Shown here piece after piece: positions 51,991 to 58,082 of a stretch of DNA of 64,000 bases. The translations under genes were made by a program, and so were the position numbers. The stretch's first letter is position 1. Every line of letters starts with the position of its first letter. Source of the DNA: Hyphococcus sp. GTDB taxonomy: Bacteria > Pseudomonadota > Alphaproteobacteria > Caulobacterales > Parvularculaceae. The stretch spans positions 806,001-870,000 of the forward strand of contig JAJFGB010000009.1 in assembly GCA_021776335.1 (NCBI GenBank). Reading direction: 5' to 3'. The notes under the pieces were generated by a model. The model worked only from the letters and a program-made list of their open reading frames with translations, was not told where the DNA came from and searched no databases.

Positions 51991-52566
51991 TTATTCTTTT
52001 TCTTTTTTTGTTTTGATGAAGGGCGTGAGCAAATCGACGGCGCGGGCGCCCAGTTTCAATAATGGCGCGATGGTTGATTTCGGCACTTTGTTCATTTGGT
52101 CGTACCACTCGTTCAGCGAGGAGATCAGTTCCTGCAAATCGCTGAGCCGCTTCACCGCCGTTTCAGATGACGCCGGGTCAGCCTTGACGTCGGTCAGGCA
52201 GGCATCAAGGACAGCTGCGGCTGGATCGAGTTCCCGGGTTTTGCGGATGGCGACGATGCGCGAAACCATCTCCCACATATCGCCCTCGGCCTCGAAATGG
52301 TCTCGGCGATCACCCATGACAGGGACACGTTTCACCAGGTCCCAGCCGAGAAGGTCCTTGATGGAGTTTGATACGTTTGACCGCGCAAGGCTAAGCGCTT
52401 CGGCAATCTCTTCCGCCGTCATCGGATGATCGCTGACGAGAAGCAGCGCATGGATCTGAGCAACAGATCGGTTGACACCCCACTGTCCGCCAAGGTCGCC
52501 CCAATGAAGAACGAACTGGCGGATCGCCGGGCTCATCTCGATAGTTTTTACGGTAATTTCTGTCAT
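51991..52566 (-). CDS. GbsR/MarR-type transcriptional regulator
   Basis: A 191-residue protein with a winged helix-turn-helix of the GbsR type: FVLHWGDLGGQWGVNRSVAQIHALLL, HPMTAEEIAEALSLARSNVSNSIKDLLGWDLVKRVPVMGDRRDHFEA. The C-terminal half is helical. It heads the DUF4166-TIGR01777 operon and probably represses it. The ATG at 52566 lies within a perfect 20-bp palindrome, and the promoter position implies a leaderless transcript (separate entries). The frame opens further upstream, at 52650, but that part is the control region. Confidence 0.88.
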   Translation of the reverse strand: MTEITVKTIEMSPAIRQFVLHWGDLGGQWGVNRSVAQIHALLLVSDHPMTAEEIAEALSLARSNVSNSIKDLLGWDLVKRVPVMGDRRDHFEAEGDMWEMVSRIVAIRKTRELDPAAAVLDACLTDVKADPASSETAVKRLSDLQELISSLNEWYDQMNKVPKSTIAPLLKLGARAVDLLTPFIKTKKEKE

Positions 52567-52575
52567 GACAGAAAT
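52556..52575. promoter_or_regulatory. Perfect 20-bp palindrome over the GbsR-type gene start codon
   Basis: ATTTCTGTCATGACAGAAAT reads identically on both strands and includes the ATG of the regulator gene. A third half-site, TACAGAAAT, lies 18 bases further upstream (52585-52593). It overlaps the -10 hexamer, so a bound dimer would block transcription. The natural ligand is the GbsR-type protein itself (autoregulation), by inference. Confidence 0.75.
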
Positions 52576-52601
52576 ATATGAAATTACAGAAATAAAGTCA
52601 A
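52566..52601 (-). promoter_or_regulatory. Near-consensus promoter giving a leaderless regulator mRNA
   Basis: On the minus strand TTGACT (52596-52601) and TATATT (52573-52578) are separated by 17 bases. Transcription would start 7 bases after the -10, at the A of the ATG at 52566. No Shine-Dalgarno precedes this ATG, consistent with leaderless translation. The start site is predicted, not measured. Confidence 0.65.
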
Positions 52602-52622
52602 GAGGTGTAAATTTCCAATTTA

Positions 52623-52636
52623 TGGGTACAATCCCA
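52623..52636. promoter_or_regulatory. Upstream copy of the cysD palindrome
   Basis: TGGGTACAATCCCA, an imperfect version of the 14-base palindrome at 52718. Centre-to-centre distance is 95 bases, close to nine helical turns. It could be an auxiliary operator for looping, or an activator site around -92 of cysD. Confidence 0.5.
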
Positions 52637-52709
52637 CGATTATGCGGCAATGGTTTAGTTTTTTCTTGATAATGGCCCGTAACTTGCTATTTGATACGAA
52701 ATTGAGTTC

Positions 52710-52731
52710 TATAAATGTGGGATAAATCCCA
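52710..52731 (+). promoter_or_regulatory. cysD -10 region and downstream palindrome
   Basis: TATAAA at 52710-52715 is a good -10. No matching -35 stands at the right distance, only weak candidates upstream. The palindrome TGGGATAAATCCCA (52718-52731) covers the predicted start site near 52722. This arrangement fits a regulated promoter with an operator at the start point. Confidence 0.55.
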
Positions 52732-52745
52732 ACAGTGGTGTGCAT

Positions 52746-53894
52746 ATGTCAGAAATCGATCAACTCGTCAGCCGCGCAGAGGACCTCGCCGCAAGCAAGG
52801 GCCTTTCGCTTTCAACGGTTTCACGCAAGCTATTCAATGACGGCAAGGGGCTAGCCCGCCTGAAAGCCGGCGGTCAGTGCACCCTGAAAACGCTGGAAAC
52901 GGCGCGGGCACGCCTTAAAGCGCTCGAAGCTGAGCCGTCACCCCTACCCGTTTCTTCCCCGGGGCAGGCAAAAACACCACCTGCTGCAATCGATGCGCGG
53001 GTGATGACTCACCTCGATCGGCTTGAAGCAGAGTCAATGCACATCATGCGTGAGGTCGCGGCCGAAGCGGAAAACCCGGTGATGCTTTATTCCGTCGGCA
53101 AAGATTCTGCGGTGATGCTGCATTTAGCGATGAAAGCGTTTTACCCGTCAAAGCCGCCCTTCCCGTTGATGCACGTAGACACCACCTGGAAATTCCAGGA
53201 GATGATCAAGTTTCGCGATGAGACGGCAAAACGGCTTGGTCTCGAGCTCATCGTCCATATCAATCAGGATGGCGTTGACCAGGGGATCGGCCCCTTCACC
53301 CATGGCAGTCAGATTCATACGGATGTGATGAAGACGCAGGGTCTGAAACAGGCGCTCGACAAGCATGGCTTCGACGCTGCCTTTGGCGGCGCACGGCGCG
53401 ACGAAGAAAAATCCCGCGCCAAGGAACGCATTTTTTCATTCCGTTCTGCGGAACATCGCTGGGACCCGAAAAATCAGCGTCCGGAGCTTTGGAACATTTA
53501 CAACACACGCATTCATGAACGCGAGTCGATCCGCGTCTTTCCCCTGTCAAACTGGACTGAACTCGATATATGGCAATATATCTATCGCGAAAATATTCCC
53601 ATTGTGCCGCTCTATTTTGCCGCCGAGCGCCCTGTCGTGAAGATGAACGGCACGGAAATCATGGTGGATGATGATCGTATGCCGCTTAACGGCGTTAAGC
53701 CCGCGATGGAAATGGTCCGCTTCCGCACGTTGGGCTGTTATCCCCTCACCGGCGCAGTGCGTTCCACGGCATCGACGCTGCCGGAAATCATTCAGGAAAT
53801 GCTCACGGCGCGAAATTCAGAACGTGAAGGCAGGGTGATCGATCACGACCAGGCAGCTTCCATGGAAAAGAAAAAACAAGAGGGGTATTTCTAA
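52746..53894 (+). CDS. cysD: Sulfate adenylyltransferase subunit 2 with N-terminal HTH-like extension
   Basis: The core (about residues 88-382 of this protein) is a standard Cys[37 protein letters not shown] (PP-loop SVGKDS), [34 protein letters not shown]. It forms APS from ATP and sulfate with CysN. Before it are ~85 extra residues: a 60-residue domain with a helix-turn-helix look ([20 protein letters not shown], then [16 protein letters not shown]), and a Pro-rich linker (about 64-80). CysD is normally ~300 residues, so this is a fusion. GTG 52740 is an alternative start; ATG 53004 could give a core-only form. cysNC follows immediately. Confidence 0.93.
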
Positions 53895-55799
53895 ATGGTC
53901 AACGCTCCTCTCACCGCCGACGACAATGTCATTGATTATCTTGCCGCCCATGAACGCAAAGGCCTGTTGCGGTTTATCACCTGCGGCAGCGTCGATGACG
54001 GCAAATCAACTTTAATCGGACGCCTGCTCTATGATTCGAAGCTGCTTTACGATGACCAAATCGCAGCGCTTGAAAGCGACACCAAAAAGCACGGGACGCA
54101 AGGCGAAAAGATCGACTTTGCATTACTCGTCGACGGTCTTGCCGCTGAACGTGAGCAAGGTATCACCATTGATGTCGCCTATCGGTTTTTCTCAACGGAA
54201 AAGCGCAAATTCATCGTCGCTGATACGCCGGGCCATGAGCAATATACGCGCAATATGGCGACCGGCGCCTCAACGGCCGATCTCGCGGTAATCCTGATTG
54301 ATGCGCGCAAAGGGATTTTGACCCAGACGCGCCGTCACAGCTTTATTGTTTCCCTGCTCGGCATTCGCAACGTCATTCTTGCTATCAATAAGATGGATCT
54401 TGTGGGCTATGACGAAGAAGTTTTTCGCAAGATCGAGGATGATTATCGCGCCTTCGCAAAGCCCCTGGGCTTTGAGACCATCGCGGCTATCCCGCTGTCG
54501 GCGCTTGAGGGCGACAACATCACCACCAGAAGTCGCAAGACGCCCTGGTATGATGGCGCGGCAATTCTGCCGTTTCTTGAAACAGTGAATGTCAGGAGCG
54601 ATCTCGCCGAGAAACCCTTCCGCCTGCCAGTGCAATGGGTGAACCGCCCTGACCTCGATTTCCGCGGCTTTTCCGGCACGATTGCCAGCGGTGCTGTGAA
54701 ACCCGGCGATGAAATCGTGGTTCTACCCTCCGCAAAGCGGTCCAGGGTTGCGCGCATCGTGACCATGGATGGTGATTTGAGCGAAGCCGGCCCCGATATG
54801 GCGGTGACCATAACGCTTGAAGACGAAATCGATATCTCACGCGGCGATGTGATTTGCGCCGGGCAGGCGCCCGCGGAACAAACCGATCAGTTCGCCGCGC
54901 ATCTTTTATGGATGGCCGAAGATAAACTCTTTCCCGGCCGGCAATATTTATTGAAGACTGCCAACCGGATTGTGCCGGCGACGGTGACCGAGCTGAAGCA
55001 CAAGATCAACGTCAACACGCTGGAACACATGTCCGGCAAGACGCTGGAGCTGAATGAAGTCGGTTATTGCAATTTGAACCTCGCACAGCCGATCGCGTTT
55101 GATTCCTACGAAGATAATCGTCGCACCGGCGCCTTTGTGCTGATCGACAAACGTTCAAACACAACAATCGGCGCGGGCATGATCGACTTTTCTTTGCGTC
55201 GGGCGCAAAATGTTCACTGGCAGGATCTTGATGTTAACAAAAAAGCGCGCGCCAGCGCCAAGCATCAGCGTCCCTGCGTCTTGTGGTTCACGGGTCTTTC
55301 AGGATCGGGCAAATCGACCGTCGCTAACCTCGTGGAAAAACGCCTCCATGATCTGGGCCGCCACACCTATACGCTTGATGGCGATAATGTGCGTCACGGC
55401 CTCAACAAGGATCTTGGCTTTACTGATGCTGATCGGGTCGAAAACATCCGCCGTGTCGGCGAGACCGCCAGACTAATGGCCGACGCTGGTCTCATCACAC
55501 TTGTTTCGTTTATCTCGCCATTCCAAAGCGAACGGCGCATGGCGCGCGAATTGATGCCCGAGGGTGAATTCATTGAGGTCTTTATCTCAACACCGCTGGA
55601 AGTCTGCGAGCAGCGCGACGTCAAAGGGCTCTACGCCAAGGCGCGGCGCGGTGAGATCAAGAACTTTACCGGCATCGACAGCGCCTATGAACCGCCGCAA
55701 AACGCCGAGATCGATGTTGATACGTCGGATATTCCCGCCGCTGATGCCGCCGACCGCATTGTCGAATTTCTGCAAGGAAACGGGTATCTGGAAGGCTGA
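53895..55799 (+). CDS. cysNC: Bifunctional CysN (ATP sulfurylase GTPase) and CysC (APS kinase)
   Basis: A 634-residue fusion. The CysN part (1-~430) is an EF-Tu-like GTPase: [21 protein letters not shown] (P-loop), [12 protein letters not shown] (G3), NKMDLVG (G4), then two beta-barrel domains. The CysC part (~455-634) is an adenylylsulfate kinase with [21 protein letters not shown] and [16 protein letters not shown]. Together with CysD it activates sulfate to PAPS. The gene begins at the base after the cysD stop, with GAGGGG upstream. CysNC fusions (NodQ-like) are common in alphaproteobacteria. Confidence 0.95.
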
Positions 55800-55856: not shown

Positions 55857-58082
55857 TTAATTCGCCGCCGTCACCGTTATCGCCTGACGCGCAATGACGC
55901 GCTTGCCGCCGAGCACATAGCGCAACTCGTAATCGCCGGGCGTTGTCGGCGCCTGAAGCTGCGCCGGTGAGCCGTTGCGCGAATATTTATAATCCAAATA
56001 GTGTCCTTCAGCGGCGCCTGGCTCGGTGATCGTAATGTAGTCGCGATGGTAACCTGGGCCTGTCCAATCGACGTTCAGCGCGCCGCCGGCGGCGACACTT
56101 TGCGGGGCTGAGAGCGTGGCTTCAACATCATTGATTGTGACGGCGCTGCGCGTGATCACCTTTTTGCCGTCAAGCACATAGCGGAATTCATAGGCGCCGG
56201 GTTCCAGTGGTATATCGAGTTCGAGCGGATTGCCGTTTTTCGGATACGCATAATCCCCATATTTACTATCGGCGTCTGTCGGTTTCACAACGGTGACCCA
56301 GTCGCCGTTTTCGGCGGGCCCAGACCATTCGACGATCACGGTCTCGCCGACATTCGCCGTTTCAGGCGCGACAAGGCTCGCTTCGCCGGCAGTTATCGTG
56401 ATCGCCTTTCGCGCAATGACTTTTTTGCCGGCCTGGACATAACGCAGTTCGTATTCGCCGGCCTCAAGCGGCATGCGCAAGGTGAGTGGATTGCCGTTCT
56501 TCATATATTCATAATCCGTATAGGTATTTTCAGCGGCGGTTGGCGCTGTCACGGTCATCCAGTCGCCGTCGTCGCCCGGCCCGGTCCAGGAGATCGCGTG
56601 GCGCGTTCCAGCCATTGCGGTTGCCGGTCCGGTAATTGTCGCTTCGACGCTACTAACCGAAATGGCGCGCCGGGCGATCACTCTTTCACCGGCCTGCACA
56701 TAGCGCAATTCAAAATCGCCCGCCTCTAACGGCGCAGTTAGCGTTAGCGGATTTCCTTCGCGCGTATATTGATAGCTGAGATACGCGTTGTCGCGCGCAT
56801 TGGGTTTGACGATGGTGACCCAGTCGTCGTTATAACCCGGCCCCTGCCAAGTTACGTCGAAGGCAGCGCCAGCGGCGACATTGTCCGCAGCCTCAAGGCT
56901 GGCCTCAACAGCAACGGCGCTGATCGGCGCGCTGGCGAGGACAGTCGCGGGGCGGCCAAGCACATAACGCACTTCATAATTGCCGGCGTCTGACGGCATG
57001 CGCAGTGTCAACGGGTTGCCTTTGCGCGTATATTCGTAACTCATATAGGCATTGGCGTTGGCGCCTAGAGCCGTGATCGTCACATAGTCGCTCTCGCGAT
57101 TGGGTCCGGTCCAGTAAACGATAATTTCAGCGCTAACGGGCGCTGATGCTTCCGGAACTGTGCGGATCGTTGCCTCAAAGTTGAGTTCCAACGGCACCGT
57201 AACGGTTTTTTCCGCATCCGGCGGCAATGTGACGTTCTTCGCCGCGCCCGTCAGGCCGTCGGCGGGCCTTTCGACAAAAATGTCATAGGTTCCAGGCGGC
57301 AATTCCACAGTTGTTTCGCCCGCATCCTCGATTTCGAACAGGATCTCGCCGCCGCCCGCCTGTTGCACTTTCCAGCTCAGGCCGCTTTCGATGAGTGGGC
57401 CGCCGGAAAGTTCAGTCGCGCGCAGCGCGAACCCGGTCGTTTGCGCATCCGGTTCTTCAATGACGGTTTCCGCAAGCGCAGCTGACAACTCGGCCGCATT
57501 CGATGCATTGAGATAGCGCCCGCCCGTGTTCTCGGCGAGACACTGTAATTGCGCCTGGTCGCTCTCCACCGTTACATCAAAGCCGATGACATGCGCGGTA
57601 AAGTCTACCCCGGTTCGTTCGAGCTCGGCGCCGACGGCGCATGGATCGAGATTGCAGGTCTCGATGCCGTCGCTGATAAGGATGACGGTTGCCTTGTTCT
57701 CGGTCGATTTGAGTTTTTCCGCCGCGAATTTTACCGATGCGCTTAACGGTGTTTTTCCTTTGGGGTTAAGTTTGTTGACAGCAGCGCCAATGGCAGCGCG
57801 ATCGGCGCCGACCACAGCGATTTCTTCAATATCGGTACAGTCGCCCTTACGATTGTGCCCATAGGCGACAAGGCCGAGCTTCTTGTCGGCAGGGAGATCG
57901 GTCAAAAGCTCGTTGATGACCCGCTTGGCGGTGACGATCTTGGCTTCGCCGTCAATCTGACCCCACATCGAGCCTGACGCATCAAGGACCAGAATGACAT
58001 CATCTTCCGCATGGGCTGAAGCGAACGACAAGCTGATGATCGCTGCGAACGCAGCGGCGATGTTGAATAAACGTGCTGTCAT
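55857..58082 (-). CDS. Secreted VWA-domain protein with five ~87-residue repeats
   Basis: A 741-residue protein with a signal peptide (residues 1-25), a VWA domain (about 28-205, intact MIDAS DASGSM and distal Thr/Asp), and a short carbohydrate-binding-like region (about 215-300). Then come five tandem repeats of ~87 residues, each with a W-T/S/Q-GP core, a D-Y/W-V/M-T-I/V strand, a Y-x-Y-x(2)-x-GNPL-x-L turn and an ELRYV strand near the end. GGGGAAACC precedes the ATG. VWA modules bind proteins through a metal; the repeats look like beta-sandwich stalks. Its partner is unknown. Confidence 0.9.
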   Translation of the reverse strand: MTARLFNIAAAFAAIISLSFASAHAEDDVILVLDASGSMWGQIDGEAKIVTAKRVINELLTDLPADKKLGLVAYGHNRKGDCTDIEEIAVVGADRAAIGAAVNKLNPKGKTPLSASVKFAAEKLKSTENKATVILISDGIETCNLDPCAVGAELERTGVDFTAHVIGFDVTVESDQAQLQCLAENTGGRYLNASNAAELSAALAETVIEEPDAQTTGFALRATELSGGPLIESGLSWKVQQAGGGEILFEIEDAGETTVELPPGTYDIFVERPADGLTGAAKNVTLPPDAEKTVTVPLELNFEATIRTVPEASAPVSAEIIVYWTGPNRESDYVTITALGANANAYMSYEYTRKGNPLTLRMPSDAGNYEVRYVLGRPATVLASAPISAVAVEASLEAADNVAAGAAFDVTWQGPGYNDDWVTIVKPNARDNAYLSYQYTREGNPLTLTAPLEAGDFELRYVQAGERVIARRAISVSSVEATITGPATAMAGTRHAISWTGPGDDGDWMTVTAPTAAENTYTDYEYMKNGNPLTLRMPLEAGEYELRYVQAGKKVIARKAITITAGEASLVAPETANVGETVIVEWSGPAENGDWVTVVKPTDADSKYGDYAYPKNGNPLELDIPLEPGAYEFRYVLDGKKVITRSAVTINDVEATLSAPQSVAAGGALNVDWTGPGYHRDYITITEPGAAEGHYLDYKYSRNGSPAQLQAPTTPGDYELRYVLGGKRVIARQAITVTAAN
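55860..57173 (-). repeat. Five tandem ~260-bp repeats within the VWA gene
   Basis: Degenerate direct repeats coding the five C-terminal protein repeats (period about 260 bases, or 87 codons). The copies differ at many positions, so the duplication is old. The GNPLTLR-type turn recurs at about 55966, 56229, 56487, 56745 and 57010. Confidence 0.85.

Follow-up and report, generated by a model that had tools for sequence, protein, structure and literature searches.

The sulfate adenylyltransferase subunit CysD of Hyphococcus sp. carries an N-terminal helix-turn-helix (HTH)-like domain, and this fusion protein, HTH-CysD, is probably a bifunctional trigger enzyme, which would bind a palindrome where its own cysD-cysNC operon begins and most likely act there as a repressor. 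The gene lies in a window of 64,000 nucleotides (assembly GCA_021776335.1, contig JAJFGB010000009.1, positions 806,001 to 870,000), to whose first letter all coordinates refer. The analysis gave an ordered HTH-like domain, a conserved fusion with conserved operators, operators that, among cysD genes, go only with the HTH-bearing ones, and no excess of exact sites elsewhere in the genomes. That the HTH domain binds the operator is what we infer from these sequence comparisons, and repression is proposed in view of the position of the proximal site, next to the start codon or over it. As a regulator HTH-CysD would most likely have a single target, namely its own promoter, and would be an autorepressor.

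The open reading frame of 382 amino acids at 52746-53894 on the plus strand was confirmed. It encodes, in this order, the HTH-like domain (residues 1-62; 52746..52931, plus strand), a flexible, disordered linker (residues 63-85; 52932..53000, plus strand) and a complete CysD, sulfate adenylyltransferase subunit 2 (residues 86-382 plus stop codon; 53001..53894, plus strand). The CysD part scores well above the cut-offs of two curated models, NF009214 (539 bits, cut-off 413) and TIGR02039 (502 bits, cut-off 397). The matches of the NCBIfam CysD models begin at residue 80-90 and extend to the C-terminal end, and the alignment with CysD from Pseudomonas syringae (1zun_A), the sole CysD among the PDB sequences matched, begins at residue 86 (E 1.6e-149, residues 86-382), which bears out the about 85 extra residues that the initial annotation had seen upstream of CysD. 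The P. syringae protein is the same catalytic subunit without HTH domain and linker. In 75 relatives in which the linker is measurable its length is 9-41 residues (median 24), and in the full-length AlphaFold2 model (mean pLDDT 77.4) residues 67-80 are disordered with pLDDT <50. Since the window genome has a single CysD match at E 1e-60 and a search of it for the Sat-type ATP sulfurylase PF01747 found none, HTH-CysD is probably the working sulfate-activating enzyme, for which its conserved core also speaks. Immediately downstream follows cysNC (53895..55799, plus strand; NF004035, 1062 bits) for subunit 1 of the sulfate adenylyltransferase fused to APS kinase. This arrangement is general: where a fused locus is followed by 400 bp or more of sequence, CysN is found downstream in 75 of 76 cases, and where 1900 bp or more follow, an APS-kinase domain is found in 65 of 68. 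Downstream of cysNC the minus strand (55857-58082) encodes a large protein that begins with a VWA-like part and contains several repeats of about 90 residues (by eye).

The extension had been described as a compact helical domain with the pattern of small HTH proteins, and structure prediction found it ordered and helical: residues 1-62 form four helices (3-18, 22-30, 35-40 and 47-62), with a mean pLDDT of 94.9 in an AlphaFold2 model of 65 residues built from 49 sequences. In these 49 sequences T24, S26-R27-K28, N31-D32-G33-K34, R38, G42-G43 and T49 are invariant. The HTH-like identity is upheld by the predicted four-helix fold; as to a name, profile searches of Pfam, NCBIfam and PDB sequences gave no named HTH family above cut-off. 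For example, the LacI HTH model PF00356 reached 12.1 bits against a cut-off of 27, and the profile of the HTH domain matched 3ctp in the PDB with E 0.068. In a fold comparison against the PDB the top matches were Cro/CI-like (HTH_3) regulators, the best E being 0.74, which is not significant, and the query TM at most 0.64 among the 50 matches listed. An enzyme and a DNA-binding-type domain are found in one chain as a complete CysD and a predicted HTH-like fold with weak fold matches. The domain also resembles the phage family phrog_7669, whose profile matches residues 2-57 (E 1.5e-6); in its library the function of this family is not described and enzyme fusions are not mentioned. A phage or plasmid origin of the domain was considered and rejected, no phage record having matched and only two weak plasmid matches having been obtained (E 0.003 and 0.5).

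The HTH-CysD fusion is found in a group of mostly marine alphaproteobacteria, of which many are represented by metagenome assemblies. CysD was matched in 60 of the 62 genomes in the family of the window genome, and in 44 of the 60 it is fused, meaning that the match starts no later than residue five of the fused query; the CysD matches of two genomes (G003 and G061) are too partial to be classed as fused or plain. Outside this family the fusion occurs in Sphingomonadales and in another family of the same order. An even draw of that order gave 52 of 249 genomes with the HTH domain, which was part of CysD frames in 48 of them and of other proteins in four (G240, G174, G227 and G215). When named genomes were scanned, the best 80 of 84 relatives were kept and all 80 were CysD fusions, because the search pattern favours the CysD-fused subtype. 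Among the genera are Marinicaulis, Parvularcula, Amphiplicatus, Hellea, Litorimonas, Algimonas and Robiginitomaculum, and four of the fused loci (L169, L172, L188 and L195) are from Sphingomonadales. A draw of 398 genomes from the phylum yielded 16 matches, every one in the class to which the window belongs. One genome of the window's own genus (G039) has a plain cysD (L089) which groups in the tree with the plain genes of genus g3, suggesting gene replacement or assembly contamination.

Two related palindromes had been noticed upstream of cysD, and both are there. The proximal candidate operator, TGTGGGATAAATCCCAAC at 52716-52733, contains the exact core TGGGA-N4-TCCCA, stands 12 bp before the start codon and is next to a TATAAAT at 52710-52716; the distal candidate, TATGGGTACAATCCCACG at 52621-52638, is an imperfect upstream palindrome of the kind that is repeated in relatives, and the distance from GGG to GGG is 95 bp. 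The palindrome consensus is CGTGGGA-N4-TCCCACG. The exact core is found only once in the 4.18-Mb window genome, at 52718-52731; it should be noted that genome-wide scans covered the exact core only, which the distal site of the window does not match. A sigma-70 scan of 52540-52760 gave no match on the plus strand and one on the minus strand, which is no more than in shuffled sequences.

Compared with plain cysD genes and with shuffles the palindromes are beyond chance, and the extension and the palindromes co-occur in relatives. Within 200 bp upstream the exact core, an untrained pattern, is present in 66 of 91 fused loci, in 0 of 56 plain cysD loci and in 0.11% of shuffles. The looser GGG-N6-CCC is present in 83/91 fused versus 1/56 plain upstreams, and the half-site GTGGGA/TCCCAC in 91/91 versus 4/56. 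The 91 fused loci are those distinct in their first 58 residues, but they share ancestry and the counts therefore overstate independence; the 56 plain ones are 16 loci of the family plus 40 of the order that were hand-picked from the listed plain genes. A matrix made from 39 of the fused loci found a site of at least 8 bits in 48 of the 52 others, in 2 of 56 plain loci and in 18 of 520 shuffles. Its four misses make up the whole set of fused loci from genus g8, among them those of Parvularcula lutaonensis and P. mediterranea. In these four loci there is no GGG-N6-CCC palindrome, and TTCCCACG is present as a direct repeat of two copies at a distance of 32-33 bp (hand-read); one of them (L066) has an additional palindrome with a spacer longer by two (hand count). 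Upstream of the fused genes the palindrome often occurs twice. With a matrix trained on these same loci, at least two sites of at least 7 bits were found in 65/91, the proximal site ended at most 22 bp from the start codon in 81/91, and among the 82 loci with a proximal site it touched or overlapped that codon in 37.

A wider regulon was looked for with the exact core only and rejected. In the 44 fused family genomes 27 of 47 exact sites are at cysD, and the other 20 compare with 41 sites of a reversed control pattern (hand tallies), so that exact sites away from cysD are no commoner than the control. As a side observation, several genomes (G018:C80, G024:C9, G042:C12, G014:C67 and G058:C372) have TGGGATTGATCCCA or its complement again at places other than cysD.

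Three lines of comparative evidence appear to tie the operator to the HTH domain rather than to cysD. One is the absence of the operator from plain genes given above. Another comes from a tree built of CysD cores, 82 from fused and 36 from plain proteins, in which the plain label needs four changes, at least two of which are forced by the starred branches. The two plain copies of one genome (L262 and L263 of G192) are inside the fused clade, at a fork with a fused gene supported 100/73 within a larger clade supported 99/99. Each of them stands closely behind another reading frame and has neither HTH domain nor operator; by the topology, this lineage is one that has lost the domain and the operators together. 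The third line are HTH homologues that are not part of a CysD. An operator of at least 8 bits was found at 9 of 32 of these, the other 23 being below, and its presence goes with the DGK motif of the domain (8/13 with the motif versus 1/19 without; Fisher p 9e-4, for a split that was chosen after the data had been seen and by a test that ignores relatedness). Among the operator-bearing homologues are the standalone L079, the 469-residue frame L111, whose function is not assigned, the shorter frames L113, L115 and L121, and L076, which is a fusion to another enzyme (see below). In a later sample of 14 further non-CysD homologues 12 were below 8 bits and two above (L358 with 9.3 and L365 with 25.9 bits), and a CysD fusion in this sample (L353) had an operator of 23.6 bits. 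Upstream of 9 of the 11 members of the large-genome family f174 in the later sample there is a wider inverted repeat, GGGCAG...CTGCCCA (by eye).

Other explanations of these findings have to be weighed. For an untranslated extension and a CysD that begins at 53004 it can be said that a methionine is kept there in 57 of 83 relatives readable at this position. In the other 26, however, it is Leu or Ile, the fold is predicted with confidence, and pN is lower than pS across the domain in 2775 of 2775 pairs (75 sequences; mean 0.284 versus 0.743). Moreover, an ATG is exactly at the domain start in 74 of the 91 distinct fused loci, and the remaining 17 have ATG, GTG or TTG at most 5 codons from it. 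The extension looks translated and constrained, and the selection pattern, the start codons at the domain start and the loss of the internal methionine rule out a start-codon artefact; a start at 53004 is hardly credible. Scarcely more probable is a role of the extension at the level of the enzyme, in localisation, in assembly with CysNC or in allostery, rather than in DNA binding. Accessory domains are frequent on enzyme subunits, but such a role leaves unexplained why the operator is associated with the domain, why both are missing from the plain copies of G192 and why operators stand before some standalone homologues.

Another possibility is that the palindromes belong to a different regulator, either the divergent GbsR-like protein or some sulfur regulator, and that the HTH-like domain does something else. 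A gene for a GbsR/CudC-like MarR regulator (51991..52566, minus strand; MarR_2 E 5.9e-11 for the open reading frame with the longer start) indeed diverges from cysD in the window, and a homologue is present in 25/80 named fused loci (the best 80 of 84 relatives). Yet of the 51 fused loci that have 1 kb or more of upstream sequence but lack a GbsR-like match (a count that includes L197), 48 carry the operator, and the three exceptions belong to genus g8. The GbsR-like neighbour was rejected as the operator binder because operators occur without its gene. It has a different palindrome, ATTTCTGTCATGACAGAAAT at 52556-52575, over its own start codon (by eye), which is possibly its own operator. Against any other regulator stand the absence of the exact core from all plain cysD upstreams, the same operator at some non-CysD HTH homologues and the lack of a surplus of exact sites elsewhere, and we regard this explanation as improbable. 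Only slightly less so is the idea that HTH-CysD does bind the operators, but activates or acts on translation initiation instead of repressing transcription. The second, distal site in 65/91 fused loci could be read in this way, as could the contact of the proximal site with the start codon in 37/82 loci, which leaves little room for a Shine-Dalgarno sequence. The core promoter and the start codon are, however, the classic place for a repressor site, and this is where the proximal site lies; beside this has to be listed that no plus-strand promoter was recognised in 52540-52760.

Autorepression by HTH-CysD, the preferred reading, would work as follows. As a dimer or higher oligomer HTH-CysD would bind CGTGGGA-N4-TCCCACG at its own promoter, and the two operator sites may be bridged by one oligomer. 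In the simplest feedback scheme, free or product-bound CysD would repress and CysD engaged with CysNC and substrate would not; ATP, APS, PAPS or the state of CysNC are conceivable signals. The spacings of the two sites lean to multiples of 10.5 bp, albeit by a weak statistic: in 56 two-site loci, forming 11 spacing clusters, the mean cosine is 0.39 (p ~0.04 versus uniform spacings), compared with 0.30 at a period of 9.5 bp and 0.21 at 11.5 bp. With all 25 distinct spacings p is 0.001, but spacings are inherited and hence non-independent, and in a Rayleigh scan of all 56 loci the strongest period is 11.25-11.5 bp rather than 10.5. Helical phasing of the two operators is therefore a hint only.

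Sulfur assimilation begins with the activation of sulfate. Among known bacterial enzymes with a second function in transcription, PutA has a ribbon-helix-helix as its DNA-binding part, and BirA and NadR carry HTH domains. PutA from Escherichia coli, a proline dehydrogenase, acts on operators between putA and putP to repress its own gene and is a single-target regulator (PMC8249747). Like HTH-CysD, for which autorepression is proposed, it is an enzyme with its own DNA-binding domain; the difference is that PutA responds to proline and that HTH-CysD joins an HTH-like domain to a biosynthetic subunit that uses ATP. BirA and NadR from E. coli, named trigger enzymes that are also transcription factors (PMC8249747), share with HTH-CysD that they are biosynthetic and use ATP. 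They differ in being other enzymes and, in E. coli, multi-target regulators (PMC8249747), and the likeness is one of function; no kinship of the HTH domains is claimed. With these reservations PutA, BirA and NadR may be taken as the closest working analogues. Within sulfate assimilation, the PAPS reductase A from Tuber melanosporum has a transcriptional role via an added peptide (PMC4848566); this is a different enzyme from a fungus, and its peptide is C-terminal and activating (PMC4848566). In Salmonella, sulfur assimilation is controlled by the LysR-type regulator CysB (PMC6277577). A precedent for HTH-CysD was not recognised in the literature searched, which was largely that outside subscription journals; a passage on CysD in PMC10853773 does not concern such a fusion. 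In HTH-CysD the repressor is apparently carried by the sulfate-activating enzyme itself, and its candidate operator is spelled out by comparative genomics. If true, this would add to the few trigger enzymes known in bacteria, and a single protein with a single promoter would suffice for a direct test of feedback from the state of the enzyme.

The finding also points to a reusable module of HTH domain plus operator on several proteins. We put somewhat less than even trust in the more general proposal that a small HTH family of alphaproteobacteria, along with the GTGGGA-type operator that belongs to it, was added as a plug-in for autoregulation to several unrelated proteins, making each of them a sensor of its own level or state; oligomeric CysD bridging two in-phase operators would then be a feedback loop of one protein. 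Besides CysD, the recipients would be the NAD+ synthetase of one genome, an uncharacterised protein of about 460-570 residues common in one large-genome family, and perhaps the AMP nucleosidase of one genome. In G240 the HTH domain is fused to a glutamine-dependent NAD+ synthetase (L076:2945-5302; Pfam CN_hydrolase and NAD_synthase), with CAAGGGATTTGTCCCTTG about 47 bp upstream; this is a single case, the sole match with such a long frame among 53 matches in 137 genomes of its family. In G430 an HTH relative is fused to an AMP nucleosidase (L118:1314-2963; Pfam AMNp_N and PNP_UDP_1), with no GTGGGA operator upstream; it is likewise a single case, from a genome that is 69% complete, and one other genome of the family was examined and gave no match. 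The HTH relatives L098, L099, L109-L112, L117 and L356-L368 are encoded in frames some 460-570 residues long, apart from L110, which is truncated at 306; those of family f174 are the ones with the GGGCAG...CTGCCCA inverted repeats upstream. For L109 there was no Pfam match, and those that were read have in common an uncharacterised part which is methyltransferase-like by eye.
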